Source: Acidobacteriota bacterium (GTDB lineage: Bacteria; Acidobacteriota; Blastocatellia; Pyrinomonadales; Pyrinomonadaceae). Taken from it: a DNA stretch of 40,212 bases. The DNA lies in contig JAIVJC010000034.1 of NCBI GenBank assembly GCA_020200235.1, forward strand, positions 1 through 40,212, written 5' to 3'. Both the position numbers and the translations under genes were made by a program. The notes below the pieces were generated by a model. It was not told where the DNA came from and searched no databases. It saw only the letters and a list, made by a program, of their open reading frames with translations. This document shows, piece after piece, positions 839 to 38,080 of this stretch (positions within the stretch are counted from its first letter, which is position 1; each line of letters opens with the position of its first letter).

Positions 839-998
839 GTCGGAACCGCCTGCGGTAGCGGGCGGGAGTTGGGATCGCGGATTGCGGATTTCGGATTGCG
901 GATTCTAAGCAGGAGGGCTCGGGCGCTCTCCATTCCGCATTCCGCATTCCGCAATCTAACAATCGGCAGGCCCGCCCGCTACCGCAGGCGGTTCCGAC
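839..998. repeat. Composite inverted repeat: 28-nt palindromic arms enclosing an inverted heptamer array
   Basis: The outer arms are 839-867 (GTCGGAACCGCCTGCGGTAG and on) and its reverse complement at 971-998. Inside them lie four GCGGATT-type heptamers (877-904) and three ATTCCGC heptamers (932-952) in inverted orientation, with a spacer of about 25 nt. The same outer arms recur at 6680, 9275 and 21017. The same heptamers recur near 21060, 23631 and 30087. Confidence 0.9.
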
Positions 999-8018: not shown

Positions 8019-8034
8019 AAATGGAACGAGGAAG

Positions 8035-8103
8035 TATGAACGATGAACGATGAACAGAAAGCAGTAGTCTTACAGTTCATCGTTCATCGTTCATCGTTCA
8101 TCG
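8035..8103. repeat. Inverted heptamer array, GTTCATC family
   Basis: Left arm 8035-8055 has repeated GAACGAT units. Right arm 8075-8103 has four GTTCATC units. The spacer is 19 nt. The array fills the gap between the DUF4920 gene stop (8105) and the dusB start (8018). Confidence 0.9.
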
Positions 8104-8104
8104 T

Positions 8105-8662
8105 TTATTTGCGCAGCTCGACGCCCGTGGCGACGAAGCTGATCTCGTTCGCCGTGCCGTCGGGGTTGCGCGTGAGTTTCGCTCCCTCTTTCTCGTAGTG
8201 ATCCGCGTCAGCCTTGCTGAGCGTCTTGACGTTGATCGTGCCCTCCACGCGCGCCCTCAAGCCCGCCGCGTTGAAGGGGACGAAGAAGGCGTGATCCTTC
8301 ATCGCGACGCGCACGCCGCGCGCGCCCTTCTCGGGCGCGAGCTCCATCCAGCAGCCCTGCGTCTGGCAGACGCGCTCGACGACGCCCTCGACGACCACCC
8401 GCTTGCCCTCGTACTTCGCGGGCTCCTTCAACACGTCGGCGAACTTGACGGCGGGCGAGTCGCCCAAGGGTTCGCCGCGGCGGACGACTTCGCCCGGCGC
8501 TAGACGGACGTTCGCCGCCTGCTGCTGCTGGGGCGTGTGTGCCTGTTCGTGACTGTGTTTGTCGGCGTGCTCGTCGGCGTGCTTGTCGGGGTGCGACTGC
8601 GCGGCGGCGGTCAGCGCGGAGCAGCAGAGGAGGGCGGTTGCGATCAGCAGGTCTCTCATCAT
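8105..8662 (-). CDS. Secreted DUF4920 protein with histidine-rich N-terminus
   Basis: The protein has 185 residues from ATG 8662 (a second ATG follows at 8659). A signal peptide (LLIATALLCCSALTAAAQS) leads to a His-rich stretch (HPDKHADEHADKHSHEQAH) that could bind metal, then a poly-Gln run. The remainder is an OB-like domain with VVVEGVVERVCQTQGCWMEL, the Cys-x4-GCWM signature typical of DUF4920 proteins. It is predicted to be periplasmic; the paired cysteines suggest a redox or metal role, but the family's function is unknown. The longer frame to 8788 is not used because it lacks a signal peptide and would run into the divergent gene. Confidence 0.8.
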   Translation of the reverse strand: MMRDLLIATALLCCSALTAAAQSHPDKHADEHADKHSHEQAHTPQQQQAANVRLAPGEVVRRGEPLGDSPAVKFADVLKEPAKYEGKRVVVEGVVERVCQTQGCWMELAPEKGARGVRVAMKDHAFFVPFNAAGLRARVEGTINVKTLSKADADHYEKEGAKLTRNPDGTANEISFVATGVELRK

Positions 8663-18379: not shown

Positions 18380-18503
18380 TGTCCGTGGTCAGTTGTCAGT
18401 TGTCAGTTGTCCGTGGTCAGTTGCTATCCGTGGCGGTCGCCCGTGTCAATCACGCGCCGCGCGCGAACAACGGACAACGGACAACTGACCACGGACAACC
18501 GAC
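18380..18503. repeat. Inverted heptamer array, CAGTTGT/CCGTGGT family
   Basis: Left arm 18380-18424 contains GTCCGTG and three CAGTTGT units. Right arm 18467-18503 contains the inverted ACAACGG/ACAACTG/ACCACGG units. The spacer is about 42 nt. It lies between divergent rfaE2 and lysS, directly upstream of the lysS promoter. The same family occurs at 28351-28451. Confidence 0.88.
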
Positions 18504-20948: not shown

Positions 20949-21016
20949 CGAAGTAGACAACTGATAAAGAAGCGCACGGGGCGCGCGTTCCGCGGAACGC
21001 GCGCCCTCCGTGCTTT

Positions 21017-21176
21017 GTCAGAACCGCCTGCGGTAGCGGGCGGGTCTATCGATTGTTAGAATGCGGAATGCGGAATGCGGATTGAAGAGCACTCAAGCCC
21101 TCTGCTGGAAATCCGCAATCCGGAATCCGCATTCCGCAATCTCGTCACCCGCCCGCTTGCGGCAGGCGGTTCCGAC
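21017..21176. repeat. Composite inverted repeat with nested heptamer array
   Basis: Outer arms 21017-21045 and 21146-21176 belong to the GTCRGAACCGCC family. Inside them are GAATGCG-type heptamers (21059-21087) and inverted ATCCGCA/ATTCCGC heptamers (21110-21142). The architecture matches 839-998. The 3' end of the minus-strand TPR gene runs into it and stops in the loop at 21093. Confidence 0.9.
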
Positions 21177-22786: not shown

Positions 22787-23755
22787 TCACTGCGAAGTTA
22801 ATTCTTCATCCGGGGCGGGGGTGCCGTTCGCGCCGCACGCCCAGCCCTCGCGCGCGTCGAGGAATTTCACGTCCGACAGATCGAAGTCCGTGTTCGTCTG
22901 CTGCCGGCGCCAGGTGCGCCCGCCGTCCGTGGTCGCCAGGGCCGTGCCGCCCGCGCCGACCGCCCAGCCGCGCCGCGCGTCGGCGAACGAGACGGCGTTG
23001 ATTCGCGTCGGCTCAAGTAAAGGAGTCTGCGCGCCGAGCCAGCGCGAGCCGCCGTCTTCGGTCTGCAAGATCGTCGAGCCCGCGCCGACGAGCCACCCCT
23101 GCGCCGCGTCGAGAAAGGACGCGCCGAGCAGGAGTCGCTGCGTGGGCACGCGCTGGCGCGACCAGCTCGCGCCGCCGTCCTGCGTGTAGTAGAGCGCGCC
23201 CAGCTCGCCGAACGCCCAGCCGTGCGCGTGATCGGTGAAGACGACGCGCACGAGCAGGACCTCCACGTCCGCGCCGGTCACGAGCACGCGCGACCAACTG
23301 CCGCCGCCGTCCGCCGTCTTGAGCAGGTAGGAGCGTGTTTGCGTCCGCGGGGAGAAGATGTCGGCTTCGCAGACGAGCCAGCCGGTCTCGCGGTCGGCGA
23401 AGTAAACGTCGCGCACCACGTCCTCGGTCGGGCGCGGCAGGGTCTGCCACGTGCGACCGCCGTCCGACGTCTTCAGCACGTTGCCCTTGCCCCCGGCAGC
23501 CCACCCCACGTTTTCGTCGAGGAAGTAGACGGCGCGCAGCCAGTTCATCGTGCCCGAACGCTGCGGCGACCACGCGCCCGCCGCGGCAACGACCTGCGCG
23601 CTACAGATGACGCATAGTGCCGCCGCGATGATTGCGGAATGCGGAATGCGGAATGCGGATTGAAGTTCGGAGGGTCGCGGCGCATGAAGGGCTTGACGCC
23701 GCGTGGTCTCGCAGCGTCGCCCGTGAATCCGCATTCCGCATTCCGCATTCCGCAT
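22787..23755 (-). CDS. Ycf48-like beta-propeller protein, N-terminus replaced by repeat DNA
   Basis: The frame has 322 residues with five or more copies of the Ycf48/BNR-type motif (VGWAAGGKGNVLKTSDGGRT; GWLVGAGSTILQTEDGG; GWAVGAGGTALATTDGGRTW). Such propellers act as periplasmic assembly factors and are common in acidobacterial secreted proteins. A signal-peptide core (IIAAALCVICSAQVVAAAGA) is present, but no ATG, GTG or TTG lies in frame between it and the repeat at 23631. The only start codons are in the heptamer array (MRNAECGMRI). The last blade stops at GWACGANGT, so the C-terminus may be shortened too. It may be a decaying gene. The TPR gene starts 32 nt downstream. Confidence 0.75.
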   Translation of the reverse strand: MRNAECGMRIHGRRCETTRRQALHAPRPSELQSAFRIPHSAIIAAALCVICSAQVVAAAGAWSPQRSGTMNWLRAVYFLDENVGWAAGGKGNVLKTSDGGRTWQTLPRPTEDVVRDVYFADRETGWLVCEADIFSPRTQTRSYLLKTADGGGSWSRVLVTGADVEVLLVRVVFTDHAHGWAFGELGALYYTQDGGASWSRQRVPTQRLLLGASFLDAAQGWLVGAGSTILQTEDGGSRWLGAQTPLLEPTRINAVSFADARRGWAVGAGGTALATTDGGRTWRRQQTNTDFDLSDVKFLDAREGWACGANGTPAPDEELTSQ

Positions 23756-24673: not shown

Positions 24674-26062
24674 TCAGCGCGCGCCGCGCCCGAAGAGGAT
24701 CGTCTTGACGGTCTCGAACAGGATGACCGCGTCGAGCGTGAGGCTCTGGTTCTTGATGTAGTAGAGATCGTACTGGAGCTTCTGCCGCGCGTCCTCGACC
24801 GAGGAGCCGTAAGGGTACTTGATCTGCGCCCAGCCGGTCAGCCCGGGCGGGATCAGGTGGCGCTGCTCGTAGTACGGAATCTCCCCCGCCAGCTGCTTGA
24901 CGAAGTGCGGGCGCTCCGGCCTGGGTCCGACGAAGTTCATCTCGCCGCGGAGGATGTTCCAGAACTGCGGAATCTCGTCCACGCGAATCTTACGTATGAT
25001 GCGCCCGACCCTCGTCACGCGCGCGTCATTGTCCTGCGCCCACACGGGCCCCGACTTCTCCGCGTCCGAGCGCATCGAGCGGAACTTCATGATCGTGAAC
25101 ACCCGCCCGTTCACCCCCACGCGCTCCTGCTTGTAGAGCGCCGGGCCCGGCGATTCGAGCTTGATGAGCGCGGCGGTCAGGAGCGCGACGGGCAGGGAGA
25201 CCACCGCGCCGACGAGAGCGACCGTGCGGTGCATCGCCGTGCGCACGAACTCCTCCAGGCGCACGCGCCTGCCGCGCCCCGAGAAGATGAGCCACGACGG
25301 GCGCATCATCGCGAGGTGGACGCGCCCCGTCAGCCGCTCGTAGAAGGACGCGCACTCCTCGATCGCCACCTCGCCCGACAGGCTCAAGCCCAGCAGCTCC
25401 TCGGTGGGGAACCGGCCCCTGCGGTCGCCCATGCCGACGATGATGCGGTCGACGCTCTCTCTCTTGACGACCGCGCCCATCTCCGTCGTCAAGCCGAGGA
25501 CGCGCGGGTTGACGATGGACTGGCCGACCAGCTCGGGCTTGTCGTCGACGAAGCCGACGATGCGGTAGCCCGCGTCGGGTCGCCCCAGCACCTCTCGCGC
25601 GATCTCTCTTGCGAAGTCGCCCGAGCCGACGATCAGGATGCGCTCGCCGATGAGCGGGTGACCCGTCAACCAGTGGATCGAGACGCGCCACCCGACCATC
25701 AGCGCGAGCGCGAGCGGCAGCGCGATCAGAGAGATGCCGCGCCCGATCATCAGCTGCGGCAGCGCGTAGAAGACCAGCGCGAGCGCGACCCACGCGAGCC
25801 CCAGCGCCTGCACGAGCCGCAGGACCAGCTCGCGCCGGTCGTTCATCACGACGAAGTCGTAAAGGTCGTAGAGGTAGAAGGCGCCGAGGCAGAAGACTGT
25901 GACGAGCGCGGCTTTGTAGTAGCCGTGGCGCGAGATCAGCTCGAAGGGAGCTTCCCGCCACCCGAAGCGGATCAGCGCGGCGGCGACCATCCCGCCGAAG
26001 AGCAGGCACGCCTCCGCCGCGAGCAGCAGTGACGTGCGGGCGTTGTGGCGGCGTGCGGGCAT
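24674..26062 (-). CDS. Polyprenyl glycosylphosphotransferase (exosortase-locus sugar transferase)
   Basis: The protein has 462 residues. Four or five N-terminal membrane helices come first, then a Rossmann-like domain (GERILIVGSGDFAREIAREV). The C-terminal bacterial sugar transferase domain has LESPGPALYKQERVGVNG, FTIMKFRSMRSDAE, IRKIRVDEIPQFWNILRGEM and FVGPRPERPHF. It transfers a sugar-1-phosphate from a nucleotide sugar to undecaprenyl phosphate and so starts each repeat unit. Architecture and neighbours fit the subfamily tied to PEP-CTERM/exosortase loci (TIGR03013-like). The start is ATG 26062, with a heptamer array just upstream. Confidence 0.93.
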   Translation of the reverse strand: MPARRHNARTSLLLAAEACLLFGGMVAAALIRFGWREAPFELISRHGYYKAALVTVFCLGAFYLYDLYDFVVMNDRRELVLRLVQALGLAWVALALVFYALPQLMIGRGISLIALPLALALMVGWRVSIHWLTGHPLIGERILIVGSGDFAREIAREVLGRPDAGYRIVGFVDDKPELVGQSIVNPRVLGLTTEMGAVVKRESVDRIIVGMGDRRGRFPTEELLGLSLSGEVAIEECASFYERLTGRVHLAMMRPSWLIFSGRGRRVRLEEFVRTAMHRTVALVGAVVSLPVALLTAALIKLESPGPALYKQERVGVNGRVFTIMKFRSMRSDAEKSGPVWAQDNDARVTRVGRIIRKIRVDEIPQFWNILRGEMNFVGPRPERPHFVKQLAGEIPYYEQRHLIPPGLTGWAQIKYPYGSSVEDARQKLQYDLYYIKNQSLTLDAVILFETVKTILFGRGAR

Positions 26063-26070
26063 AACTCAAG

Positions 26071-26138
26071 TGACGAGTGATGAGTGATGGGTGATGAGCA
26101 CTTTGCTTTTCACTCATCACCCATCACTCATTACTCAT
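26071..26138. repeat. Inverted heptamer array, ACTCATC family
   Basis: Left arm 26071-26098 has GAGTGAT units. Right arm 26111-26138 has inverted ACTCATC units. The loop is 12 nt. The stop codon of the tyrosine kinase gene (26124) lies inside the right arm. Confidence 0.92.
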
Positions 26139-27284
26139 AACTTCTTTCGTCTCTTCGCGCCGCTGGTAGTAGCGGCGCTGGTAGTAGTAGCTGCTCTCGT
26201 CGGGCGTCTCTTCGGCTCCGTTGAGGACGACGCCGAGGAGCCGCTCGCGCGGGAGCGGTTCGAGCACGCGGTCGAGCGCGCCGAAGCGCGTCTTGCCGGA
26301 GCGGACGACGACGAGCGCGGAGTCGGCTCTGTTGATCAGCACCGTCGCGTCGGTGAAGATGCCGAGCGGCGGCGCGTCGATGATGATGTAGTCGAACGTG
26401 CGGCGCAGCTCCGCGAGCACCGCGCTGAACTTGGGACCCGAGAGAATCTCCGCCACCGTGTCGCGCGTCGAGCCGCCCGGCAGCAGGTAGAGGCCGCCGG
26501 GCTCGACCTTGACGATCACCTCGGAGAGCGTCGCCTCGCCGGCGAGGACTTCCGAGAGACCGGCGGACGCTTCGACGCCGAGGTAGTCGGCGGCGCAGGG
26601 GTTGCGCAGGTCGCCGTCGACGAGGATGGCGCGCACGCCGTCGGTCTGCGCCAGCAGCCACGCGAGGTTCAAAGCCGTGACGGTCTTGCCCTCGGCGACG
26701 CTCGCGCTCGTGACGACGAGAGCCTGGAGTTTGCGCCGCTCGCCCGCGTGCAGGACGCGCGTGCGGAGCGAGCGGTACTGCTCCGCGTGCGGCGAGCGCG
26801 GGTCGGTGATGGCGACCAGATGTGGCTCGACGCGCGCGGTCGAAATCTCCACCGAAGGAAATTCCGCCGCGCGCGCCGACCCGACAGCGTCCACAGTTGC
26901 CCCAGCAACACGCGAAGCCTCGGCGCCGGAGAGTGCCGATCCGGCGAAGGCTGTGCCCGTGTGCTCAATGGACGCTGAAGCGTGCGCCGCGGAGAACGCC
27001 GCCGTCGTGGCGGTCTCCTCCGGCGCGTGGAAAAATTCCGAGGTGAGGCCGAGCAGGTCTTCCTGCTCGGCGCGCGCGTCGCCCTCGAAGAGACCGGAGG
27101 GCGCGGCGGCCACCTGCGGCGCGGCGAGATCGACCGCGCGGGCTTCCGCGTGCCCGTTGCCGTTGGCGCCCGCCGGCTGCGTCGCGTCGGCTGCGTCCGC
27201 CGCGCGCGTCTCGCCCTTGTCGGCGGTCGCGCCGCTGGCGCCGTTGCCGGCGGCGCGCTTCAAAGCTTCGTAGACTCTGCCCAT
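26124..27284 (-). CDS. BY-type tyrosine autokinase of the exopolysaccharide locus
   Basis: The protein has 386 residues. The first about 150 are Ala/Gly/Glu-rich and look disordered. The kinase domain has Walker A VTSASVAEGKTVTALNLAW (Ala where Pro-Gly is usual), Walker A' AILVDGDLRNP and Walker B YIIIDAPP. A tyrosine cluster near the end (SSYYYQRRYYQRRE) is the likely autophosphorylation site. No membrane helix is present: the partner is the separate Wzz-like protein encoded upstream. It would regulate polymer length. The last residues (VMSNE) and the stop come from a heptamer repeat. The ATPase stop codon overlaps the start region by 0 nt. Confidence 0.9.
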   Translation of the reverse strand: MGRVYEALKRAAGNGASGATADKGETRAADAADATQPAGANGNGHAEARAVDLAAPQVAAAPSGLFEGDARAEQEDLLGLTSEFFHAPEETATTAAFSAAHASASIEHTGTAFAGSALSGAEASRVAGATVDAVGSARAAEFPSVEISTARVEPHLVAITDPRSPHAEQYRSLRTRVLHAGERRKLQALVVTSASVAEGKTVTALNLAWLLAQTDGVRAILVDGDLRNPCAADYLGVEASAGLSEVLAGEATLSEVIVKVEPGGLYLLPGGSTRDTVAEILSGPKFSAVLAELRRTFDYIIIDAPPLGIFTDATVLINRADSALVVVRSGKTRFGALDRVLEPLPRERLLGVVLNGAEETPDESSYYYQRRYYQRREETKEVMSNE

Positions 27285-28337
27285 TTATCTCTCCCCCATC
27301 GCGTCCCAGCGTCTGAACGCCGCGCCGATGTCGTTCACGTCGAAGGCGCGCGGGACTTCCCGCTCGACCTCGCGCGCGGCGCCCGACGCCGGGTCGTCTC
27401 CCGACCCGCCGTCGCCGCCGCCGCCGTTCTCGCCGCCGCCCGCCGACCAGAGTTCCGCGCGACCGCGCGCGTCGAAGATTCTCGCGGGGCTCTCGCGCTC
27501 GTCCGCCACGGGGCGGCCCGCGGCGGCGCGCGGCAGCATGTCGAAGGTGTCGGCGACCTCCTCGATGATCGCGCGCGTGACAGTCGGCTCGCCCGCCGCG
27601 TAGCCGGCGAGCAGGGCGTTGTCGCAGAGGTTGTTGATCTGGCGCGGGATGCCCTCGGAACAGCGGAAGACGTAGTCGAGCGCCGACTGCGTGAACACGT
27701 CCGTGCGCTGCGCGCCCGCGGTCACGAGCCGCGACTTGACGTACTTCTCCGTCTCCTCGATGTTCGGCAGCGGCTTGATCTCGCAGCGCAAGGCGACGCG
27801 CTGCTTGAGCTGCCTGAGCTCCGGGTTGTTCAAGACCTCGCGCAGTTCCGGCTGCCCCGTCAGCACTACTTGCAGGAGCTTCGCCGAGTCGGACTCGAAG
27901 TTCGACATCAGGCGAATCTCTTCGAGGACGGAGGTCGAGAGGCCGTGCGCCTCGTCGATGATGAGCACGGTGCGAAGCCCGCGCGCGTGGCGCGACTCCA
28001 GCACCTTGCCGAGCTTGAAGAGGAGATCGGACTTGTTCTCCCACTCCTCCACCCCGAGGACGCGCGTGACGTGCTGGTAGAACTCCGGCACGGTGAGGCG
28101 CGGGTTGAAGACGTAGCCGACGAGCACGGTGCGGTCGAGCCGCTGCATCATCCAGCGCAGGATCGTCGTCTTGCCCGTGCCCACCTCGCCCGTCACGACG
28201 ATCAAGCCCTTGCCGCTCTCGATGCCGTAGTGCAGGTTCGCCATCGCCTCCGTGTGCGACGGCGTGAAGTAGATGAAGCGCGGATCGGGCGTCAGCGCGA
28301 ACGGCAACTCTCTGAGACCGTAGAACTCTTTGTACAT
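27285..28337 (-). CDS. AAA ATPase of the PEP-CTERM/exosortase locus (ExeA-like)
   Basis: The protein has 350 residues. The start YKEFYGLRELPFALTPDPRF is the typical ExeA/GspA-type opening. Walker A GLIVVTGEVGTGKTTILRW is near residue 50, Walker B TVLIIDEAH near 125, sensor-like VVLTGQPEL near 160, and an arginine-containing lid segment is GIPRQINNLCDNALLAGY. This matches the putative secretion ATPase found in exosortase loci (TIGR03015-like). The last about 80 residues are low complexity with a glycine run (GGGENGGGGDGGSGDD). The stop abuts the start of the kinase gene (27285/27284), so translation is probably coupled. Confidence 0.92.
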   Translation of the reverse strand: MYKEFYGLRELPFALTPDPRFIYFTPSHTEAMANLHYGIESGKGLIVVTGEVGTGKTTILRWMMQRLDRTVLVGYVFNPRLTVPEFYQHVTRVLGVEEWENKSDLLFKLGKVLESRHARGLRTVLIIDEAHGLSTSVLEEIRLMSNFESDSAKLLQVVLTGQPELREVLNNPELRQLKQRVALRCEIKPLPNIEETEKYVKSRLVTAGAQRTDVFTQSALDYVFRCSEGIPRQINNLCDNALLAGYAAGEPTVTRAIIEEVADTFDMLPRAAAGRPVADERESPARIFDARGRAELWSAGGGENGGGGDGGSGDDPASGAAREVEREVPRAFDVNDIGAAFRRWDAMGER

Positions 28338-28350
28338 CTCAACTCCAAAA

Positions 28351-28451
28351 CTGTCCGTCGTCCGTCGTCAGTTGTCAGTTGTTAACTTCGCCTTCGGTGA
28401 GCAGCTTCGCTCAGCATGAGCAACGGACTACTGACCACGGACAACTGACAG
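28351..28451. repeat. Inverted heptamer array, CAGTTGT/CCGTCGT family
   Basis: Left arm 28351-28383 has GTCCGTC and CAGTTGT units. Right arm 28421-28451 has CAACGGA, CTGACCA and ACAACTG units in inverted orientation. The spacer is about 37 nt. It starts 3 nt after the stop of the Wzz-like gene (minus strand) and is the same family as 18380-18503. Confidence 0.87.
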
Positions 28452-28454
28452 CTT

Positions 28455-30077
28455 TTACGTTCCCAGCTTCTCGAACACGTGCGTCAGCTTCAGCAGCAGC
28501 GCGAGCGCGGGGATGCTGAAGGCGGTCGCGACGACGCTCGCGAAGGCGAGCGCGGTGCGGCGCACCTTGCGCCGGCGCTCCTCGCGCGCCGTGAGCAGTT
28601 CCGGCACGGAGACGAGGACGGGCAGAGACGTGTAGTGGCGCGCGTCCTCGACCGTCTGGATCGTCATCAGGCGCGGGACTTCGAAGGCGGCGGCGAAGAG
28701 GAGTCCCACGCCGACGCCGAGCGCGAGCCCGAAGATGATCAGCATCGGGCGCTTCGGCGCGATGGGCTTTTCGGGGAGCGAGGCGGGGTCGATGACCGCG
28801 ATGGTCTCGCCCTGCGCCGACTTCGACGCCTCCTCCGCGAGGTGCGCGCTCGCCTGCTTCTTGAGCAGGTCGTCGTAAGCCGCCTTCTTCGTCTGGTACT
28901 CGCGGTCGAGCGTCGTCAAGCCGACCTCAGCCTGCGGCACGCGCTCGATGCGCGCGGAGATGCCGGCGATCTGAGAGCGCGTCTCGTCGAGCAGCTTCTG
29001 CTGGCGCGCGACCTCGCCCTGCATGAACTGGAGCTGCGTCTTGTAGGTCGTCGCGCTGGGATCGACGCGCCTTTCGAGCCGCGCCTTCTTCTCGCCGATC
29101 TTCTCCTTCCAATCGTCGAGCATCCGCTGCTTCTGCTTCTGGACGGCTCCGAGCTCCTGCTTCTTCGCCAACACGTCCGGGTTCTTCGGTCGCATGCCCG
29201 CGGCGAGCATCGCCTGAATCTCCGACTCGAACTGCGACTCCTGCTTGGCGAGATCAGCCCACGCCAGCGTCGTCTTCGGGTCGGTCAGCGTCTCGGCGAC
29301 GTCCTCGATGCCAGCCTGCGTGTTGTTCTCCGCGGCGCCGAGCTGCGTCGTCAGCATCGTCTGCTGATCGCGCAGGCGGCCGATCTCGGTGATGTAAGCC
29401 TTCTGCTGCTCGTAGAGGCCGGAGAGCTGCTGGACGAGCGCGGAGGTGGACGACGGCAGGTTCGCGAGGTTCGCCTTGAGGTATTCGAGCCGGCGCACGT
29501 CGATGGCGTCGAGATCCGCCTTCGCCGCCTCGACCTGGCGGTCGATGAACACGCTCCCCTCCTTCGCACTCAACGACGAGAACTGCGTCTGCGCGTTGAC
29601 GTACTTCGAGGCGAGATCGGAGGCGACCCTCTGGACGATGAACTGGTCGGGTCCCTTGTAGGAAATCTGGAAGCCGTTGGTGATGTCGTTGCGGCTCTTG
29701 TTCAGCTCGACCTGGATGTCCTTCTTCTTCATCTGCTCGACGAGGACTTCCATCGACTCGCCGCGCCTGCGCTCCAGCGCGTAGAGGTTGTAGTTGAGGA
29801 TCATCGGCTCCAGCGACGAGCGGCTGAAGACCTCCTGCGCGATGTTGTTGATGCGGATCGTCAGCTCGTCCTCGGAGACCTGCGGGACGATGCCCTCGGT
29901 CAGCGAAGAGGGCCGCACCGTCAGCAGCGTCGTGGACTGGTAGACGTTCGGGAGCCGCCAGACGACCGCCGCGACGGCGAAGAAGATCGCGATCGCCGGC
30001 AGCGCGATCATCCACTTGCGCCGCCAGAGAATCTGCGCGTACTCGGCTGGTGTGCGCTGTCGAAATTCAGTGCTCAT
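28455..30077 (-). CDS. Wzz-like chain-length determinant of the exosortase locus
   Basis: The protein has 540 residues from ATG 30077, which has GGAG 5 nt upstream. Two membrane helices border a long periplasmic coiled coil: WMIALPAIAIFFAVAAVVW near residue 30 and MLIIFGLALGVGVGLLFAAA near 445. A third hydrophobic segment (ALAFASVVATAFSIPALALL) is at the C-terminus. The N-terminal Wzz domain includes PNVYQSTTLLTVRP. Coiled-coil blocks rich in Gln, Lys and Glu fill residues 200-420. The family sets polymer length and recruits the tyrosine kinase; it matches the XrtA-system chain-length protein type (TIGR03007-like). Confidence 0.92.
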   Translation of the reverse strand: MSTEFRQRTPAEYAQILWRRKWMIALPAIAIFFAVAAVVWRLPNVYQSTTLLTVRPSSLTEGIVPQVSEDELTIRINNIAQEVFSRSSLEPMILNYNLYALERRRGESMEVLVEQMKKKDIQVELNKSRNDITNGFQISYKGPDQFIVQRVASDLASKYVNAQTQFSSLSAKEGSVFIDRQVEAAKADLDAIDVRRLEYLKANLANLPSSTSALVQQLSGLYEQQKAYITEIGRLRDQQTMLTTQLGAAENNTQAGIEDVAETLTDPKTTLAWADLAKQESQFESEIQAMLAAGMRPKNPDVLAKKQELGAVQKQKQRMLDDWKEKIGEKKARLERRVDPSATTYKTQLQFMQGEVARQQKLLDETRSQIAGISARIERVPQAEVGLTTLDREYQTKKAAYDDLLKKQASAHLAEEASKSAQGETIAVIDPASLPEKPIAPKRPMLIIFGLALGVGVGLLFAAAFEVPRLMTIQTVEDARHYTSLPVLVSVPELLTAREERRRKVRRTALAFASVVATAFSIPALALLLKLTHVFEKLGT

Positions 30078-30086
30078 CACTACTCC

Positions 30087-30168
30087 ATTTCGGATTTCGG
30101 ATTGGGGATTTCGGATTAAAGAAGAGCGACGACGTCGACGCTTTCAAATCCGCATTCCGCATTCCGCC
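30087..30168. repeat. Inverted heptamer array, ATTCCGC/TCGGATT family
   Basis: Left arm 30087-30119 has TCGGATT units. Right arm 30146-30168 has ATCCGCA and ATTCCGC units. The spacer is about 26 nt. It lies between the TPR lipoprotein stop (30170) and the Wzz-like start (30077). The arms match less exactly than at the other loci. Confidence 0.82.
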
Positions 30169-30169
30169 A

Positions 30170-32605
30170 TCAAAGCGTCGCGAGGGCGCGTCGCGCCTCC
30201 TCGGCTTGCGCGGGTGTCAGGCCCTTGCCCGCGCCGGTGTTCAAAGCCTGCTGCAACTGCTGGCGCGCCTCCGCCTTGCGCCCCGCGGCGGCGAGCGCCT
30301 GCCCCAGCCGCGCGCGGTAGGCTGCGTTGTCACCGCCCGACGCCTGCGCCCGCGAGACAGCCTTCTGCAACTGCTCGACGGCGGCGGAGCCGAGCCCCTT
30401 CTTGAAGTAGACCCAGCCGAGCGTGTCGGCGAAGCCCGGCTCGTCCGGGAATTTCTGCACGACCCCCTGCGCGAGCCGCATCGCCTCGTCGAGGTTGCCG
30501 CCGCCGTGATCGGCGTAGTTCCACGCGAGGTTGTTGGCGGCGAAGATGTGGTCGGGTCTGATGGTCAGAGCCTTGCGGTACGACTCGTTCGCCTTGTCGT
30601 AGCTCTGCCGCTTGTCTTCGATCATGCCGATCATGACGTGCGGCACGGCGTCGTCGGGTCGCTTCGCCGCCCACTCGCGCAGCGAGGCGATGGCCTGATC
30701 GGGCTGATCGGTGTTGATGTAGAGCGAGGCGATCGCGTTGAAGGCGGGGACGAAATTTGGATCGAGTTCGAGCGCGCGGCGCATCTCGCCCTCCGCGCCC
30801 CTCGCGAACTGCGCCTCCAGCTCCTGGTTCTTCTGCTCCTTCGCCGCCCCCCCCTGCGCGCCGTAAATCTGACCCTTGAGGAAGTGGAGCGGCGCGCTGT
30901 CTTTGACGGCGAGCGCCTGATCGACGCGCGCGTGCGCCTTGTCGAACTCCTTCTGCTGGGCGAAGAGGCCGATGATGCCGTTCAGCGCGTCGAAGCTCGT
31001 CGCGTCGAGCTGGAGGGCGCGCTCGTAGTGCTGCATCGCCTCGTCGCGCTTCTTCTCGACGGCGGCGACCGCCGCGAGGTTCGTGTGCGAAGAGGGCGCG
31101 TTCGGCAGCAGGTCGCGCGCGGCGGTGAAGTCGGCCCGCGCGGCTGCCAGGTTCTTCAGCTGCGCCTGCGCCGAGCCGCGCGCGGTGAGAGCCTTCGCGC
31201 GCAACTCGTTCATCATCTCCGGCGTGACGCGGGAGTCGGGCGTCGCGCGGCTGAGCTTCTCGACGAGGTCGTTCGACTGCCTGAGCGCCGCCTGCCAGTC
31301 GCCCGCGGCGAGGTTGATCTGCAGCTGGAGGAGCTTCGGATGGATTTCGTTCGGGTAGTACTTTTCGAGGTCTCCGGCGAAGACCCGCGCCTGCTCGATC
31401 TGGTTCAGCCGCAGGTGCGCGTCAGCCATGTAGTAGAGCCCCGCCTGATCGCGCGGCTCCTGCTTCAGCACCTGCTTCAAGTCCTCGACGGCGTCCCTCA
31501 ACTGCGCGCCGCCGTTCATCCTCACGCGCGCGCGCAGCAGGAGAGCCTGCTTGTCGTTCGCGTTCTTCTTCAACACCCCTTCGGCTTGCGCCAGAGCCCC
31601 GGCAGCGTCGCCCTTCTGCATCATCAGCTCGCCGAGGCGGTAGCGCGCCTGCGTGTAGTCGGGGAACTTCGCGATCGTCTCCTGGAAGGCGCGCGCGGCT
31701 TCCTCGGGGCGCCCGATCTGCGAGTAGAAGTCGCCGAGGACGGCTGTGCCTTCGGGCTTGCCGCTGTCGAGCTGGGCGAGGGCGCGCGCGGCTTGCTCGG
31801 CGCGGTCGAGGCGCTTCTGCTGGATGTAGAAGGTGACGAGCGTGCGGTGCGCCTCGCGGTTCTGCTGATCGACTTCGACGGCGCGGAGGAACTGCTCCTC
31901 CGCCCTGTCCATCCGGTTCTGCTGGACGAAGAAGCGCGCGTACTCGAGGTGCGCGAGCGCGGAGCGGTCGTCGACGCCGATGGCGCGCTGGTAAGTCTCT
32001 TCGGCTCTCGCCGAGTCGCCCGTCTGCCGGTAGTAGAGCGCGAGGCTGATCAAAGACTCGACGCGCCGCGGATCGATCTCGACGGCTTTCTTCAGCTCGG
32101 CGAGCGCGCCCTCTTTGTCGCCCGCCGTGAAGAGGATCGTGCCGCGGAGGATGTGGCCCTCGATGTGGTTGGGGTTCTTCTGCAGGACCTCTTCGGCGAG
32201 CCGCGACGCCTCGTCCTTCGTCCTGGAGTCGCGGTTCTGCTGGTAGGCGACGATGTAGTAGTTGCCGAGGCGGACGCGCGCGTCGAGGTTGTTCGGATCG
32301 AGCTGGATCGTGCGCTGCATCTCATCGACAGCCTGCGCGAACTGCCCCGCGCCCTCGTAGGCGCGCGCCAAGCCCCAGTGAGCCTGCGCCGCGCGGTCGT
32401 CGATCTGGACGGCGTTGCGGAACTCCAGCGACGCCTCCTGATATTTCTTCTCTTTGAGGTAAGCCTCGCCGCGGTTGAGGTGCTCGGCTTTCGCCTTTTC
32501 GGGATCGGAGCAGGCGGAGGCGACCAGCAGCAGGGCGAGCGTGGCGAGCAGGAACGGGAGCAGACCCCGGCGTGCGCCGGAGCGTTGGCACTCTTGTCGA
32601 TTCAT
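30170..32605 (-). CDS. TPR-repeat lipoprotein of the exosortase (PEP-CTERM) locus
   Basis: The protein has 811 residues. The lipoprotein signal ends in ALLLVASACSDPEKAK, with Cys as likely lipidation site (the lipobox is not perfect, Ala at -3). More than 15 TPR hairpins cover nearly all the rest, for example HLNRGEAYLKEKKYQEAS, AHWGLARAYEGAGQFAQA, ARVRLGNYYIVAYQQN and FADTLGWVYFKKGLGSAA. Length and context fit the PEP-CTERM system TPR lipoprotein (PrsT, TIGR02917-like), thought to organise periplasmic assembly. An upstream gap of 260 nt suggests its own promoter. Confidence 0.9.
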   Translation of the reverse strand: MNRQECQRSGARRGLLPFLLATLALLLVASACSDPEKAKAEHLNRGEAYLKEKKYQEASLEFRNAVQIDDRAAQAHWGLARAYEGAGQFAQAVDEMQRTIQLDPNNLDARVRLGNYYIVAYQQNRDSRTKDEASRLAEEVLQKNPNHIEGHILRGTILFTAGDKEGALAELKKAVEIDPRRVESLISLALYYRQTGDSARAEETYQRAIGVDDRSALAHLEYARFFVQQNRMDRAEEQFLRAVEVDQQNREAHRTLVTFYIQQKRLDRAEQAARALAQLDSGKPEGTAVLGDFYSQIGRPEEAARAFQETIAKFPDYTQARYRLGELMMQKGDAAGALAQAEGVLKKNANDKQALLLRARVRMNGGAQLRDAVEDLKQVLKQEPRDQAGLYYMADAHLRLNQIEQARVFAGDLEKYYPNEIHPKLLQLQINLAAGDWQAALRQSNDLVEKLSRATPDSRVTPEMMNELRAKALTARGSAQAQLKNLAAARADFTAARDLLPNAPSSHTNLAAVAAVEKKRDEAMQHYERALQLDATSFDALNGIIGLFAQQKEFDKAHARVDQALAVKDSAPLHFLKGQIYGAQGGAAKEQKNQELEAQFARGAEGEMRRALELDPNFVPAFNAIASLYINTDQPDQAIASLREWAAKRPDDAVPHVMIGMIEDKRQSYDKANESYRKALTIRPDHIFAANNLAWNYADHGGGNLDEAMRLAQGVVQKFPDEPGFADTLGWVYFKKGLGSAAVEQLQKAVSRAQASGGDNAAYRARLGQALAAAGRKAEARQQLQQALNTGAGKGLTPAQAEEARRALATL

Positions 32606-32865
32606 CTGTTTTACGAAAACTCCCCGCGTTCCCGACCCTGTCCCGCGCGCTCCGGGGCAACGGCGCGCGCGCGAATCTCGTCGGTGATCGCGTCTCTTCG
32701 TCTAAGTCCCGACTCTCCCCCGCCGGGGCAACCGGCGGCGTGAGTCATCCGCAATGGGTGAAACTAATAATCCCGACTTCGTTCCGCTTTTCTGGAGATT
32801 TGGAAGGCGGGGCAACTGCCGACATCAATCTTACCCGAAGGTGAGCCGACCGCGCCAGCCTTTTC
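32606..32865. other. Leader of the TPR lipoprotein gene with a thrice repeated GTTGCCCCG motif
   Basis: On the minus strand GTTGCCCCG occurs three times: near 32813-32821, 32722-32731 and 32655-32663. Each is embedded in a GC-rich inverted context, for example CCGCCGGTTGCCCCGGCGG. No ORF of interest is present. These could be operator sites or hairpins in the untranslated leader. No known riboswitch class is recognised. Confidence 0.4.
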
Positions 32866-33528
32866 TCAGTCGGGGACGTATGCCGGGAGGTGCGGGGCGG
32901 CTTGCGCGGCGAGGTCCGTGGCGGTGCGCAGAGCCTGCGCCTCGTCGCCCGCGAAGGGGACCATCACGCGCACCATCGCGCCGTCGGAGCGGCGGCGCTT
33001 GACGCTGTCGATGACGGTGTAGACCTTGCCCCAGTACTCGCTCGCCACGGCGCGCCCGCGCCCCTGGTACCAGTAGAGCAGGAGCTGGCGGCTGTCGCCG
33101 TTCTCGACGATGTAGCGGTTCGCCTCGAAGGGGGCGCCGCCGCCCGCGGGCGTGACGTGGATGACGCCGGGCTCGCGCATCGTCCAGCCCGCGCCGGGCA
33201 GGCAGTTGAGCGGGCTGTGGTAAGTCGCGCCGTTGCGCTGCGTCGCGTAGTAGCCGACGTAGAAGTTCGCGCCGCGCCCGTCCGCCGTCACGTAGTCGCG
33301 CGCGAGGTAGTCGTCGGCGCGCAGCACCTGCTCCACGTCCGCCGTGAAGCGCGCGTCCGCGCCGCTCTGCCGCCACGCGCCGAGCTGCTGCGGGAACTGC
33401 GAAAGCTCGCGCCGCCCGACGTGCGCCTCGCCCGCGCGCTCCCAGAAGTTGACCAGCGCGCCGCCCGCGAAGAGCAGCAAGAGCATCGCCCAGAAGTGCC
33501 AGCCGCGTGATCTCATCTCCGGCCTCAC
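32866..33528 (-). CDS. epsI: EpsI family protein (exosortase-associated)
   Basis: The protein has 220 residues from GTG 33528, which overlaps the exosortase stop (GTGA). An alternative ATG at 33516 has GGAG directly against it, too close to work well. One N-terminal membrane helix (FWAMLLLLFAGGALVNFW) is followed by the EpsI/DUF3485 domain: FPQQLGAWRQSGADARF, NFYVGYYATQRNGATYHSPL, NCLPGAGW, LLLYWYQGRGR and VRVMVPFAGDEAQALRTATD. The motif YHSPxNCLPGxGW is characteristic. EpsI proteins accompany exosortases in exopolysaccharide loci; their exact job is unsettled. Confidence 0.92.
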   Translation of the reverse strand: MRPEMRSRGWHFWAMLLLLFAGGALVNFWERAGEAHVGRRELSQFPQQLGAWRQSGADARFTADVEQVLRADDYLARDYVTADGRGANFYVGYYATQRNGATYHSPLNCLPGAGWTMREPGVIHVTPAGGGAPFEANRYIVENGDSRQLLLYWYQGRGRAVASEYWGKVYTVIDSVKRRRSDGAMVRVMVPFAGDEAQALRTATDLAAQAAPHLPAYVPD

Positions 33529-34412
33529 GTCCCTTCCCCGCCCCTCGCGGTCGCGGGCGCGACGCTCGCGACCACGGTCGATGATTCCGGCGCGGCGCGC
33601 GCCTGCGACTCCGACGCGGCGACCGCCGACGCCCCTGACACCGTCTGACCCTTCGACGCCTCGCCCGCCTTGGTCGCCGTGCCCGCCCGCTTCGCGGCGC
33701 GCCGCGCGCGGCGACTCTGGCGGTTGGCGATCCCATCGAGCAGCCACCCGAGCGCGAAGAGCAGGAGGAACGCGGCGACGTAGACGACCCAGCCGGAGAA
33801 CTCGTGAAAGAACCCGTCGGCGACCTTCGTCCCGTAGTAGCGCGCGAGGATGCCCGTCCCGCTCACGCGCGCCGCGTTCGTGATGATCGCGATGGGCACG
33901 GCGGAGAGGACGAGGATCACGGAGCGCCACACGCCGTAACTCTTGAGCCACGCGAAGCGGCCGCGAGCTCCTTCGCCCTTACCATCGTCCTTCGGGAACG
34001 AGAAGTAGGCGAAGACGACGGCGAGCGTGACGAGCGTCATCAAACTCCGGATGCCGCTGCACGCCTCGACCACCTCGAGCTTCTTCGTCGTCGAAGAGCC
34101 GAGCGGCATCAGCTCGATGACGTTGCCCTGTCTCAGCACGGGGATGTCGAAGAGCCGCATCGACGCCACGGCGCAGCGCGAGGCGAAGAGTTGTAGGGGG
34201 AAAGCGATCTTGTTGAAGATGATCGAGGGGATCGGGATGGCGAGCAGGAGCAGCAGCAGCGGCACGAGCACGAGCCTGAGCCGACCGCGGCGGCGCCCCA
34301 CGCGAGCGAGGGGCGTCTGAGGGCGCGTGCGAGCGCGTCGCGCTCCGTCCAGAGGATGTAGCCGATGATGAAGGGGATGAGCAGCCCGTGCGAGTAGTTC
34401 TCGTCCTCCCAC
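33525..34412 (-). CDS. Exosortase, C-terminal catalytic part (gene internally deleted and frameshifted)
   Basis: Homology in this frame runs from [19 protein letters not shown] (about 34280) to the stop. It contains the active-site triad of the family: Cys in [17 protein letters not shown], Arg in [18 protein letters not shown] and His in [17 protein letters not shown]. The residues from the nominal ATG at 34412 to about 34285 are an out-of-frame reading of the N-terminal part. Exosortases are polytopic transpeptidase-like enzymes that process PEP-CTERM-type sorting signals. The Ala/Ser-rich tail after residue 220 is unusual. EpsI follows with overlapping stop/start. Confidence 0.88.
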
Positions 34413-34513
34413 CAGAAGCGACCGAGCTTGGCGAGCACGCCCCAGTAGGCGAACGCGACCGCCGCCGCGACCAAGAGCGGCTTCGTGAAGTTGCGCGCGG
34501 GGGTCTGTTCCAT
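34133..34513 (-). CDS. Exosortase, N-terminal part (frame lost after about residue 75)
   Basis: Residues 1-75 are genuine exosortase sequence: first helix [19 protein letters not shown], then [20 protein letters not shown], the conserved N-terminal block. After SLAWGAA (near 34300) the frame becomes Ser/Cys-rich nonsense. The next homologous sequence in the other frame starts at [11 protein letters not shown]. The two helices usually found between (about 45-55 residues) are missing, so this is an internal deletion and not only a one-base shift. The start is ATG 34513. Confidence 0.8.
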
Positions 34514-34654
34514 ATCGTTCTTCGTCGAGGACTATCGATCGGGGTAGGTCTATAAAGGGTTGTCCGCTCCGGCGAGCGCGGAGCCCACCGCCTGCCGAGG
34601 CTGAAGCCGCTGTCGCGCGCGGCGACCTGACTACTATGAGAAGATTAACGCGAA

Positions 34655-34687
34655 CCGCGCGCCGACGGCAACGCCCGTCGCGCGCGG
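34655..34687. repeat. GC-rich hairpin downstream of the glycosyltransferase gene
   Basis: Arms CCGCGCGCCGACGG (34655-34668) and CCCGTCGCGCGCGG (34674-34687) pair with a small bulge around a 5-nt loop. It lies in the 266-nt gap between the GT4 stop and the exosortase start. There is no T-run, so a terminator role is uncertain. The rest of the gap shows nothing clear. Confidence 0.4.
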
Positions 34688-34779
34688 GCGCCCCCTGCGT
34701 AAACGTTCAATCGCGCGTCCATTCCCCGACGCGGTTGCCACACTCATGCCCACTCGCGACAGTTCAGCACGAGATTCGA

Positions 34780-35826
34780 TCACGAGCCGAGCAGCTCCTC
34801 GTAGAGCTTGAAGACCTCTTCGACGTTGCGCTCGTCGGTCGCCGCGTCGCCCGCGCCGCGCGGCGCGCGCTCGCGCGAGAGGTGCGCGTCGATAGCCGCG
34901 ACGAGTGCGCGCCCGTCCGCGACGGGGACGAGCGCGACGCCGCCGGGGCGCATCCCGTTGTCGGTCGCGACGACGGGGACGCCGAGGTGCAGAGCCTCGC
35001 GCACGGAGATCGCGTCGCCGTCGTAGAGGGTCGTGCGCAGGAAGAGATCGCTTTCGGAGACGGCGCGGAGCGTCGCCTCGTGCGGCACGTCGCCGCAGAG
35101 CAGGACGTGTCCGGCGTAAGGCTTCTCGGCGATCAGCCGCCGCAGCTCGCCTTCCAGACTCCCCGATCCGATGATGACGAGCCCCGCGCCGGGGAAGCGC
35201 TCGCGCACCGCGCCGAGCGCGTCGATCTGCGCCGCGAGATCGTACTCGGGCTCCAGCAGCCCGACCGTCAACAGAACCTTCTCGTGCGCGCCGAAGAAGC
35301 CTCTGAGCGGCTCGCCGAGTTCGACGCCCGTAGGCGCGGCGGAGAGCGCGTGCGGGAGGATGAGGCGCACGCGCGCGGGCGCGACTCCGAAGCGGCGGAA
35401 CATCCCTGCGATCTCCTCGTTGACGGCGATGACGCGGTCGAAGCGGCGGAAGACGAAGCCGCGCAGCGTCGCGGGTCGCGCCGTGCGCCCTTCGGGCGAC
35501 GACGGGTAGCCGCCCGAATGAAAGGTCAGAACCGACTTGCCGCGCCCGACGGTCGCGCAGGCGAGTGCGAGCCCTAAGAGTCGCGCGGGCAGCCCGCCGC
35601 CGACGTGCAGGTGGATGATGTCGTAGCGCAGGCGGCGCAGGTGTCGGAGCAGTTGCGCCGGGGTCTCGGGGTAATAAACTTCGTCGGCTTCCGGCTTGCG
35701 GTGGCGCGTGACGTTGACGACGGCGCAGCCGTGCCCGCGGCGCAGCAGGTACTCGCGGATCGACACGAGGTTGGCTTGCACCCCGCCCCACGGCGGCGGG
35801 TACGGTCCGAGTTGGAGGACTTTCAT
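34780..35826 (-). CDS. Glycosyltransferase family 4 (GT-B fold)
   Basis: The protein has 348 residues. The start MKVLQLGPYPPPWGGVQANL has the typical Gly-Gly loop of GT4 enzymes. The N-terminal Rossmann half includes YDIIHLHVGGGLPARLLGLA. The C-terminal half has KVLLTVGLLEPEYDLAAQID, LVIIGSGSLEGELRRLIAE, VLLCGDVPHEATLRAVSESD and the nucleotide-sugar motif GDAISVREALHLGVPVVATD (E-x7-E-like). It would add a sugar to the lipid-linked repeat unit in the cytoplasm. Donor and acceptor cannot be told. A heptamer array separates it from the upstream oxidoreductase. Confidence 0.92.
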   Translation of the reverse strand: MKVLQLGPYPPPWGGVQANLVSIREYLLRRGHGCAVVNVTRHRKPEADEVYYPETPAQLLRHLRRLRYDIIHLHVGGGLPARLLGLALACATVGRGKSVLTFHSGGYPSSPEGRTARPATLRGFVFRRFDRVIAVNEEIAGMFRRFGVAPARVRLILPHALSAAPTGVELGEPLRGFFGAHEKVLLTVGLLEPEYDLAAQIDALGAVRERFPGAGLVIIGSGSLEGELRRLIAEKPYAGHVLLCGDVPHEATLRAVSESDLFLRTTLYDGDAISVREALHLGVPVVATDNGMRPGGVALVPVADGRALVAAIDAHLSRERAPRGAGDAATDERNVEEVFKLYEELLGS

Positions 35827-35844
35827 CGAAGGACAAAGACAAAA

Positions 35845-35930
35845 GTGATGAGTGATGGGTGATGAGTAGAGGCGACTTGCTTTTACTCATCACTCATCAC
35901 TTCTCCCTCATCACTCATCACTCATCACTG
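35845..35930. repeat. Inverted heptamer array, ACTCATC family
   Basis: Left arm 35845-35870 has GAGTGAT and GGGTGAT units. Right arm 35884-35930 has seven or so ACTCATC units with an interruption (TTCTCCC). The stop codon of the Gfo/Idh gene (35911) lies inside. Same family as 26071-26138. Confidence 0.92.
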
Positions 35931-37041
35931 CTGCTAAGTCTATCTCGCGCGGCTCCGACGAGCGCGCCGAGTCCATCAGCGCGAGGCAGCCGATGGTTGC
36001 GCGCGCCCCGTCGAGGACAGTCACCTCCGGCGCGCGCCCCTCGCGCATGGATTTGACGAAGGATTCCAACTGCGCCGCGTAGCCCTTCTCGCCCCACCAG
36101 CGCGAGCGCGCGCTGAGAGTGCCCTTTTTGATCGCGAGCCGCTTGAAGTCTTCCGTCGCGAGACCGAGCCCTTCCGCGAAAGCCTCGACGCGCTCGCCCG
36201 CGCTCGTCTTGCTGCCCACGGTGCAGTAGGTGAGATTCGCGACCGAGCCGTCCGCGAAGCGGAACGAGGCGGCGACGTTGTTCTCTCCGACCGTGCCCTC
36301 GCCGCCCGTCGGCAGACTGTAGGCGGAGACCGCGGCGGGCTCGGAGTCGAGCAGCCAGAACATGAGATCGACGAAGTGGACCGCTTCGCCGAGGATCGCG
36401 CCGCCGATCGCCGGATCGGCCATCCAGTAGGAGCCGGAGATGCCGGGCGAGTTGACGCGGCAGTTCACGACGGCGGGGCCGGCGCGGCGTGCGAGCTGCG
36501 ACTTCAGCTCGCGGTAGAAGGGCGCGAAGCGTCGGTTGAAGCCGACCGTGAGTTGCTTGCCACTCTCGCGCACCGCCCGCGCCAGCGCGCGGCATTCATC
36601 GACGGTCAGCGCCATCGGCTTCTCGACGAAGACGTGCTTACCCGCGGCGAGCGCGGCGAGCGCCTGCGCGGCGTGGTGCTGGTTGCGCGTCGCGATGAGA
36701 ACCGCGTCGATCGATTCGTCGCGCAGAATTTCGTCGTAGTCGGAGGCGCAGTAGTCCGCGCCGAAGCGCAGGGCGTAGCTCTTGCCGCGCGAGCCGCTCG
36801 CCGAGTAGACGGCGGCGAGTTTCACTCCGGGGATTTTTTTGAGCGCGGGCACGTGCGCCCAGCGCGCGATGTTGCCCGCGCCGACGAGCGCGACGCGCAA
36901 CTCCTTCGCGTCGCCCCGCGGCTCGACCCTGTCGCGCGCGATCTCGACCCTGCGCCGCGGCGCGAACGACTCCGCCGCCCGCTCGTCGTCAGCCGCGGGG
37001 TAGCGCAGCAGCACCGCCACGCTCGACTCCGCCGGGTTCAT
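35911..37041 (-). CDS. Gfo/Idh/MocA oxidoreductase, C-terminal half of a bi-domain oxidoreductase
   Basis: The protein has 376 residues. The NAD(P)-binding motif LRVALVGAGNIARWAHVPAL is near residue 50, and the signature AGKHVFVEKPMALTVDECRAL is near 135. GEAVHFVDLMFWLLDSEP carries the catalytic-type His. The first 45 residues (AESSVAVLLRYPAADDERAA) are not Gfo/Idh sequence. They look like the end of the alcohol dehydrogenase domain that precedes it in bi-domain oxidoreductases of polysaccharide loci. The likely role is nucleotide-sugar modification. The C-terminal AVMSDE and stop are repeat-encoded. ATGA overlap with the upstream frame. Confidence 0.88.
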   Translation of the reverse strand: MNPAESSVAVLLRYPAADDERAAESFAPRRRVEIARDRVEPRGDAKELRVALVGAGNIARWAHVPALKKIPGVKLAAVYSASGSRGKSYALRFGADYCASDYDEILRDESIDAVLIATRNQHHAAQALAALAAGKHVFVEKPMALTVDECRALARAVRESGKQLTVGFNRRFAPFYRELKSQLARRAGPAVVNCRVNSPGISGSYWMADPAIGGAILGEAVHFVDLMFWLLDSEPAAVSAYSLPTGGEGTVGENNVAASFRFADGSVANLTYCTVGSKTSAGERVEAFAEGLGLATEDFKRLAIKKGTLSARSRWWGEKGYAAQLESFVKSMREGRAPEVTVLDGARATIGCLALMDSARSSEPREIDLAAVMSDE

Positions 37042-37999: not shown

Positions 38000-38010
38000 C
38001 AACCGTTGTG

Positions 38011-38080
38011 GCGAAGCCGCGACTGTTTTAGCGGCGAAGCCGCGACTGTTTTAGCGGCGGAGCCGCGTCCGTTTCTAACG
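38011..38080. repeat. Three tandem units of 23-24 bp overlapping a stop codon
   Basis: GCGAAGCCGCGACTGTTTTA plus GCG is repeated at 38011-38033 and 38034-38056. A diverged third copy (GCGGAGCCGCGTCCGTTTCT and on) covers 38057-38080. The third copy includes the stop codon (38075-38077) of the beta-helix gene. Confidence 0.88.

Follow-up and report, generated by a model that had tools for sequence, protein, structure and literature searches.

The window analyzed here, a 40,212-nucleotide (nt) stretch that constitutes one contig (C81) of a Pyrinomonadaceae genome (Blastocatellia, Acidobacteriota), contains two genes, one for a bacterial tyrosine (BY)-kinase-like ATPase and one for a Gfo/Idh/MocA oxidoreductase, whose final codons lie within tandem arrays of a 7-nt word. 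The Pfam domains of the two proteins, AAA_31 and GFO_IDH_MocA, respectively, indicate that they are unrelated. The features at the two gene ends are as follows:

24674..26062, minus strand: gene for a bacterial sugar transferase (PF02397), downstream of the kinase gene
26068..26143, no strand assigned: heptamer hairpin of the ATGAGTG family, with inverted arms at 26068-26098 and 26113-26143 around a 14-nt loop, located between the end of the kinase gene and the start of the sugar-transferase gene; RNA fold -46.3 kcal/mol, z score -9.3
26124..27284, minus strand: BY-kinase-like ATPase gene (PF13614, AAA_31), with its last four codons and stop within heptamer units; the protein ends KEVMSNE
35844..35929, no strand assigned: heptamer hairpin of the ATGAGTG family, with arms at 35844-35866 and 35907-35929, separated by a region that holds another heptamer run; RNA fold -49.5 kcal/mol, z score -7.4
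35911..37041, minus strand: Gfo/Idh/MocA oxidoreductase gene (PF01408, GFO_IDH_MocA), with its last four codons and stop within heptamer units; the protein ends AAVMSDE

The kinase gene terminates with GTT ATG AGT AAT GAG TGA (V M S N E stop, the stop codon being at 26124-26126 on the minus strand) inside a period-7 array at 26110-26142, and the Gfo/Idh gene terminates with GCA GCA GTG ATG AGT GAT GAG TGA (A A V M S D E stop, with the stop codon at 35911-35913) inside another at 35885-35929. An earlier examination of the letters alone (the sequence-only reading) had noticed the VMSNE and VMSDE endings and had proposed that both tails are translated from ATGAGTG-type arrays, which had entered or grown into the coding ends and supplied tail and stop. 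The endings are correct as a direct reading of the sequence, the last four residues and the stop do fall inside heptamers in both genes, and the tail is present in none of the orthologs examined; hence, this part of the proposal stands. What it overlooked is that each array is one arm of a hairpin, with an inverted partner array at 26069-26098 for the kinase and at 35844-35867 for the Gfo/Idh gene, and its further suggestion, that the supply of stops is the reason for the placement, fared poorly, as detailed below.

Among 60 kinase rows, comprising 59 named loci and the window, the MS[DN]E ending occurs in the window only (1/60); the closest named matches are from Acidobacteriota, many of them labeled Pyrinomonadaceae. 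Similarly, among 30 Gfo rows (the window copy and 29 homologs, 6 of which are 52-74% identical and the remainder 30-38%), the tail is confined to the window's own copy (1/30). The element-free kinase orthologs close to the window in the kinase tree have longer tails, with L160 ending in ...YYRRDETQPGAPTKDVEEDV and L155 in a tail that is longer still. The window kinase ends in the shorter ...YYQRREETKEVMSNE, and thus its native end looks to have been cut and replaced. The window Gfo protein (ending EIDLAAVMSDE) is instead two residues longer than that of the repeat-free L011 (EIDLEAALR). A different heptamer is seen at each of these sites in relatives: the kinase of another Pyrinomonadaceae genome (G021) ends KETMNAER, from ATGAACG units, and the Gfo protein of a genome of the same genus as the window (G001) ends KDERGTMN, from ATGAACG-like units. 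Annotated C-termini in this soil lineage can be repeat derived, and unrelated proteins can thereby have tail peptides in common.

The wider sample consisted of 1.31 Mb from two Pyrinomonadaceae genomes, namely 908 kb of the window genome (G000; 4.08 Mb in 258 contigs) and 400 kb of G021. These contain 187 and 76 arrays, respectively, that repeat at a lag of 7; any other lag between 4 and 13 yields 1-33 and 1-14 arrays, lag 14, a multiple of 7, gives 119 and 49, and a single-base shuffle of the G000 sample gives a single lag-7 array. The 14-mer ATGAGTGATGAGTG occurs 83 times in the 4.08-Mb genome and its reversed control not at all. Neighboring arrays (at most 150 bp apart) are inverted complements within two mismatches in 60/64 cases in G000 and 22/23 in G021; by the same two-mismatch rule only 15/64 and 1/23 are direct repeats. 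At the array threshold, clusters with more than one array make up 61/124 in G000 and 22/53 in G021, and clusters within genes number 4/124 and 0/53. The possibility that the arrays stand alone was set aside, as they have inverted partners. A scan for hairpins across 512 (G000) and 239 (G021) gaps of 25-600 bp, filtered for 7-periodic arms, yielded 101 and 56 elements (157 in total, leaving out L087, which holds a run of N), and none of the 751 gaps gave a 7-periodic hairpin when shuffled. The median arm is 29 nt in G000 and 30.5 nt in G021, and the commonest periodic part is 4-4.5 units per arm, a preference seen in 22/56 elements in G021 and, more weakly, in 25/101 in G000, where 3-4 units are nearly as common. 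The words were sorted into families by a greedy clustering that merges words up to 2 mismatches apart and serves as a guide only. Beyond these two genomes, the 59 named loci (471 kb) have 75 lag-7 arrays with 39 canonical words at 32 loci, the other lags from 5 to 12 giving 0-11 arrays, and no lag-7 array occurs in the 135 kb covered by 16 loci from other lineages, most of them Streptomyces.

We propose, with a probability of about 0.72, that gene 3' ends are occupied by short hairpin elements, a variant of the known bacterial heptamer repeats that arrives near stops, spreads, and is replaced, and that the MSNE and MSDE tails are a by-product of these elements. Each element has a variable loop between two inverted arms, with about four heptamer units per arm, and would arrive as a whole hairpin at or near a stop codon, owing to a preference of target or mechanism together with selection. 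The words would then spread within the genome, and the elements would later be replaced or rewritten, leaving each genome with its own word set. When an arm comes to lie over the last codons, a stop-bearing word ends the gene within 18 nt, and a minority of coding ends are captured in this way. In the mRNA, these elements would form very stable stem-loops between the genes of an operon, where, as a guess from the predicted folds, they would most likely serve as 3'-end barriers or spacers.

The placement of the elements is uneven: they are present in 133/557 gaps between co-directional genes, 19/94 between convergent genes, and 5/100 between divergent genes. The median distance from stop to hairpin in co-directional gaps is 4 nt in G000 (the row with the N run, L087, is still counted here) and 3 nt in G021. 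One possibility is that purifying selection alone is at work, with insertion being random and the survivors being those just after stops in tight operons, and the scarcity of elements between divergent genes and inside genes is in line with this. However, 32 co-directional gaps leave 60 nt or more free and have no overlapping element, and even there 16 elements are found no more than 10 nt past the stop (expected 2.5, P = 1.8e-10), compared with only 4 that come as close to the start (P = 0.23). We hence regard selection as the sole cause of the placement as somewhat unlikely and favor hairpin elements that tend to arrive near stops. At least six T in the following 8 nt are found after 5/133 co-directional heptamer hairpins and after 4/57 nonperiodic ones; a U tract being rare after these control hairpins too, this test for terminators has little power. 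In one convergent gap (L265:11868 versus L078:4782), a heptamer hairpin is located just beyond a separate terminator-like hairpin common to both species, and its heptamer units differ between them.

The words themselves vary considerably between genomes. Per whole genome, 14-mers of ATGAGTG number 83 in G000, 3 in G001, 0 in G021, and 67 in a further genome, G011; those of ATGAACG number 102, 24, 95, and 1, and those of GTCCGTT 37, 1, 2, and 0, in the same order. The reversed controls are absent from all four; elsewhere, the ATGAGTG control occurs 28 times in G026 and once in G024, and the GTCCGTT control 2 times in G036 and 3 times in G037. At the kinase junction, heptamer hairpins are present in 5/60 rows, with five different words. 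The sugar-transferase gene directly adjoins or overlaps the kinase stop in 22/60 rows, the overlap being 4 nt in 20 of them, and the remainder comprises 32 rows with other gaps, some holding other hairpins, and 1 row without a downstream gene. The kinase tree (for which a longer L206 alignment was used and a short one passed over; the L206 frame is broken in the kinase rows) unites L153 with L154 (100/99) and the window with the element-free L155 and L160 (96/82). On this tree the five labeled rows require 4 changes, and they cluster no more than expected by chance (56/500 shuffles are as low), which points to several gains or losses.

Direct comparison of orthologous sites provides a closer view of this variation. 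L153 and L154 (the latter is evidently contig C17 of G021, each being 143,112 bp long, and hence L154 and G021 are not independent) are 86% identical in DNA over 7.6 kb, and L153 has GTGACAA and L154 has ATGAACG at the kinase end; at the end of the GNVR-domain gene they have AGTGATG and ATGAACG, respectively, and the window has GTCAGTT/GTCCGTT there. At another site, the genes abut in G001, and the site is filled in G000. Among pairs of orthologous gaps with 80-90% flank identity, both gaps are filled in 7 cases, one in 20, and neither in 119. In the 7 pairs with both filled, the units differ by distances of 0 (two cases), 1 (two cases), 2, 3, and 4, against a background of mostly 3-4. Between G000 and G001, 31 orthologous gaps divide into 2 filled in both, 10 in G000 only, and 19 in neither; between G000 and G021, 28 divide into 5 filled in both, 6 in G000 only, 1 in G021 only, and 16 in neither. 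The automatic test behind these two comparisons missed degenerate elements (e.g., at Gfo) and counted one non-heptamer hairpin. The most unexpected result is that a change of word can leave period, architecture, and position intact. These observations could also be accommodated by a dedicated activity in Pyrinomonadaceae that both builds hairpins with arms of about 4 × 7 nt at gene 3' ends and rewrites them, such that the step, the arm size, and the address at the stop are inherited and the word is replaced across both arms. We consider this unlikely; if true, each species would have its own word dialect, and unrelated proteins would acquire common C-terminal peptides.

Several points weigh against our proposal of hairpin elements that arrive whole, spread, and are replaced. 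With respect to replacement, a third L153/L154 junction is a mosaic, with a CTTACTGC array common to both and an extra ATGAACG hairpin in L153, and the same word has been kept at some orthologous sites (groups L171, L176, L178, and L182). G001, from the same genus, is usually without a detected element at the same gap, and its array density, 106 per Mb versus 206 per Mb in G000, is about half. With respect to sampling, much of one sequence sample was drawn from contigs known to hold ATGAGTG. With respect to placement, the gene starts come from our own simple caller, and selection in tight operons should by itself place some elements close to stops. With respect to arrival as whole hairpins, the mismatch between arms is 5.8%, compared with 21% when the arms are slid by one unit and 20% between units of one arm, but the contrast of 5.8% with 21% is partly circular, given that the elements were picked as hairpins. 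For the 62 array pairs detected through lag 7 alone, the arms agree in the order of their variant units only slightly better than they do with permuted units: the agreement is better in 37, worse in 16, and equal in 9; other overlap rules give 32/14/16 and 35/22/5, and a looser one gives 30 better and 32 equal or worse. Thus, the inverted pairing is firm, and the matching of unit order between arms is weak. Likewise, the loops are mostly not shared, with 14 similar pairs among 126 loops of at least 15 nt, and hence simple copying of elements as wholes does not fully account for them; we do not claim shared loops as proof of such copying. Finally, for comparison with miniature inverted-repeat transposable elements (MITEs), which have terminal inverted repeats with a target-site duplication, the present elements have inverted arms, and no clear or consistent target-site duplication was apparent by eye in 16 aligned gap pairs, and no mobilizing gene was identified.

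Some of these points are shared by an alternative based on replication slippage, in which a chance heptamer after a stop grows in place and its inverted partner is generated by local fold-back copying. The tandem units, the variable arm lengths, the mostly different loops, and the weakly matched unit order are all compatible with it. It is harder to reconcile with the irregular unit CGGAACG, which recurs among ATGAACG units at many loci and also in another genus, and with the 29 matches that one G000 element has in G001 outside the orthologous contig (by hand count), though similar words alone could cause some of these matches. Taking these together, we judge growth in place to be quite unlikely relative to elements that spread between loci. 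As a separate observation, matches in contigs C31 and C237 of G002, a bin with 6% contamination, are at the same contig coordinates as in C22 and C161 of G000, which suggests contigs common to both bins.

The capacity of these words to end a gene follows from simple arithmetic. In any frame, a 7-nt unit is read as an identical series of seven codons (for ATGAGTG, M S D E stop stop V), and, 7 and 3 having no common factor, every frame that enters TGA-bearing units is closed within 18 nt. With ATGAGTG, the start of a stop codon is never more than 15 nt away, regardless of phase, and with the other stop-bearing words tabulated it is at most 18 nt away. The words GCGGAAT, GCGGATT, and GTCCGTT can be read in both directions without meeting a stop codon. 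Among the 171 gene 3' ends that face a hairpin, 23 overlap the element by at least 6 nt; the resulting tails include MNAER, MKYER, VNRES (twice), and AVSC, and a few of these genes (e.g., the window gene at 21093) pass through the arm and stop in the loop. The sequence-only reading had offered an adaptive account, with insertion at 3' ends made nearly harmless by the stop supplied; taken further, heptamers would be kept there because they give stops in all frames. In addition to the 23/171 overlaps, this account could draw on overlaps of at least 10 nt in 12/75 stop-bearing versus 3/58 stop-free co-directional elements and on stops being directed inward in 54% of elements and outward in 31%. 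However, shuffled words reach 48% inward and 26% outward, so that base composition accounts for most of this difference, and we do not claim selection for stop-bearing words from the small excess (54% versus 48% inward). Further, stop-free words are placed alike, with 42/58 of them, compared with 64/75 stop-bearing ones, starting before the gene end or no more than 10 nt after it, and 94/133 co-directional elements start after the gene end, past a stop that the gene and not the element supplied. We hence find it very doubtful that harmless insertion explains the placement; stop supply happens, and may add a little, but it is mostly a by-product of elements occupying the 3' end.

Tandem heptamers in several families are also known from the short tandemly repeated repetitive (STRR) sequences of cyanobacteria. 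The closest parallels are the GGGAATC and GGGGA(C/T)T heptamers of Xanthomonas and Nostoc, which, in the parts of the report drawn on here, are described as preferring four units, as being intergenic and near or overlapping stops on the sense strand, and as under-represented between divergent genes, with 70-75 convergent inverted pairs of GGGAATC-type repeats in two xanthomonads (PMC4692102). Both kinds thus have period 7 and a near-four-unit length, are mostly intergenic, lie near stops and can overlap them, form inverted pairs, and are scarce between divergent genes. The same parts of that account describe for Xanthomonas one G-rich word, a tie between four units and G-quadruplexes, and retention of 83% of the sites of one species in the other (PMC4692102). 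In contrast, the present genomes have many, mostly non-G-rich words each, different words at the same site in relatives, and, at the array threshold, about half of the clusters paired (61/124 in G000). In the word lists, the common words ATGAGTG, ATGAACG, TTAGCTG, and GCGGATT have no run of three G, and a few rare words have one; non-G-rich words with a Xanthomonas-like period, near-four-unit length, and proximity to stops argue against quadruplex formation as a general cause.

The TAACTGA repeats of Beggiatoaceae and others similarly give stops in all frames, an argument made for them by MacGregor, who noted 13 arrays overlapping upstream stops (PMC4679880). As far as the relevant sections of that paper go, these are direct arrays, apart from a single indirect one, and most of them immediately precede start codons, with coding-end overlap limited to 18 nt, and their origin is left without an evident mechanism (PMC4679880); the present elements differ in their words, inverted pairs, and bias toward the stop side. 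Geobacter metallireducens also has families of four or five tandem heptanucleotides in tens of copies, which were called regulatory elements or binding sites, a 49-copy family being found inside genes too; in the corresponding part of that report, no placement at stop codons is described (PMC2700814). For heptamer or 7-bp repeats in Acidobacteriota, we found no literature in PMC, as judged by search results and titles. Sister species whose words differ at one and the same junction provide a system in which the origin and change of bacterial heptamer repeats can be tested.

To our knowledge, heptamer arms are not a hallmark of repetitive extragenic palindromic (REP) elements. REP and the GTAG- and CGTC-tagged palindromes are likewise short, intergenic, and present in many copies, and the parts of the reports used here sort them by a tag at one end, link them to tyrosine transposases, and make no mention of heptamer arms (PMC3733652, PMC2817692). 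That the present elements are REP-like and mobilized by REP-associated (Y1) transposases is highly improbable: they are short intergenic palindromes and Y1_Tnp genes are found in 34/40 genomes, with two in the window genome, but each genome has many different words, and G011 (91% complete) has 67 ATGAGTG 14-mers and no Y1_Tnp match, which leaves dependence on such a transposase unsupported.

The remaining heptamer hairpins of the window, none with a strand assigned, are as follows:

872..953: GGATTGC/CATTCCG arms
8025..8105: ATGAACG family; the outer edge touches the TAA stop of a gene ending at 8105 on the minus strand
18381..18503: GTCAGTT/ACAACGG arms; in a divergent gap, a minority position
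21059..21138: GAATGCG/AATCCGC arms; 31 nt of the loop are identical to the loop of the element at L123:7555
23633..23754: GCGGAAT family, stop-free in both directions
28347..28455: GTCAGTT/GTCCGTT family, aligned with G021; on the 3' side of the minus-strand GNVR-domain gene that ends at 28455
30087..30167: ATTTCGG/TCCGCAT arms; poor fold (z score -1.7), probably degenerate

Among six window elements folded, four have z scores of -7 or below, one has -4.6, and one -1.7. At 838-1000 and 21010-21175, two GCGGATT-type hairpins are nested in a larger GC-rich inverted repeat (GGAACCGCCTGCGGTAGCGGGCGGG and its near-complement), forming a composite of two kinds of palindrome. At 23633-23755, an open frame crosses the GCGGAAT arrays (MRNAECGMR..., SAFRIPHSAI), and automatic annotation may thus extend genes into repeats as false N-termini. 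A scan of the window against Rfam at the gathering score gave no match at the heptamer elements; only Acido-Lenti-1 (RF01687) was recovered above this score, elsewhere in the window, at 3162-3206 (minus strand), 10295-10340 (minus strand), and 10444-10491 (plus strand). A further repeat of a different period, a 23-nt tandem repeat (GGCGAAGCCGCGACTGTTTTAGC) in 2.8 copies at 38010-38074, adjoins a gene ending at 38075 on the minus strand.

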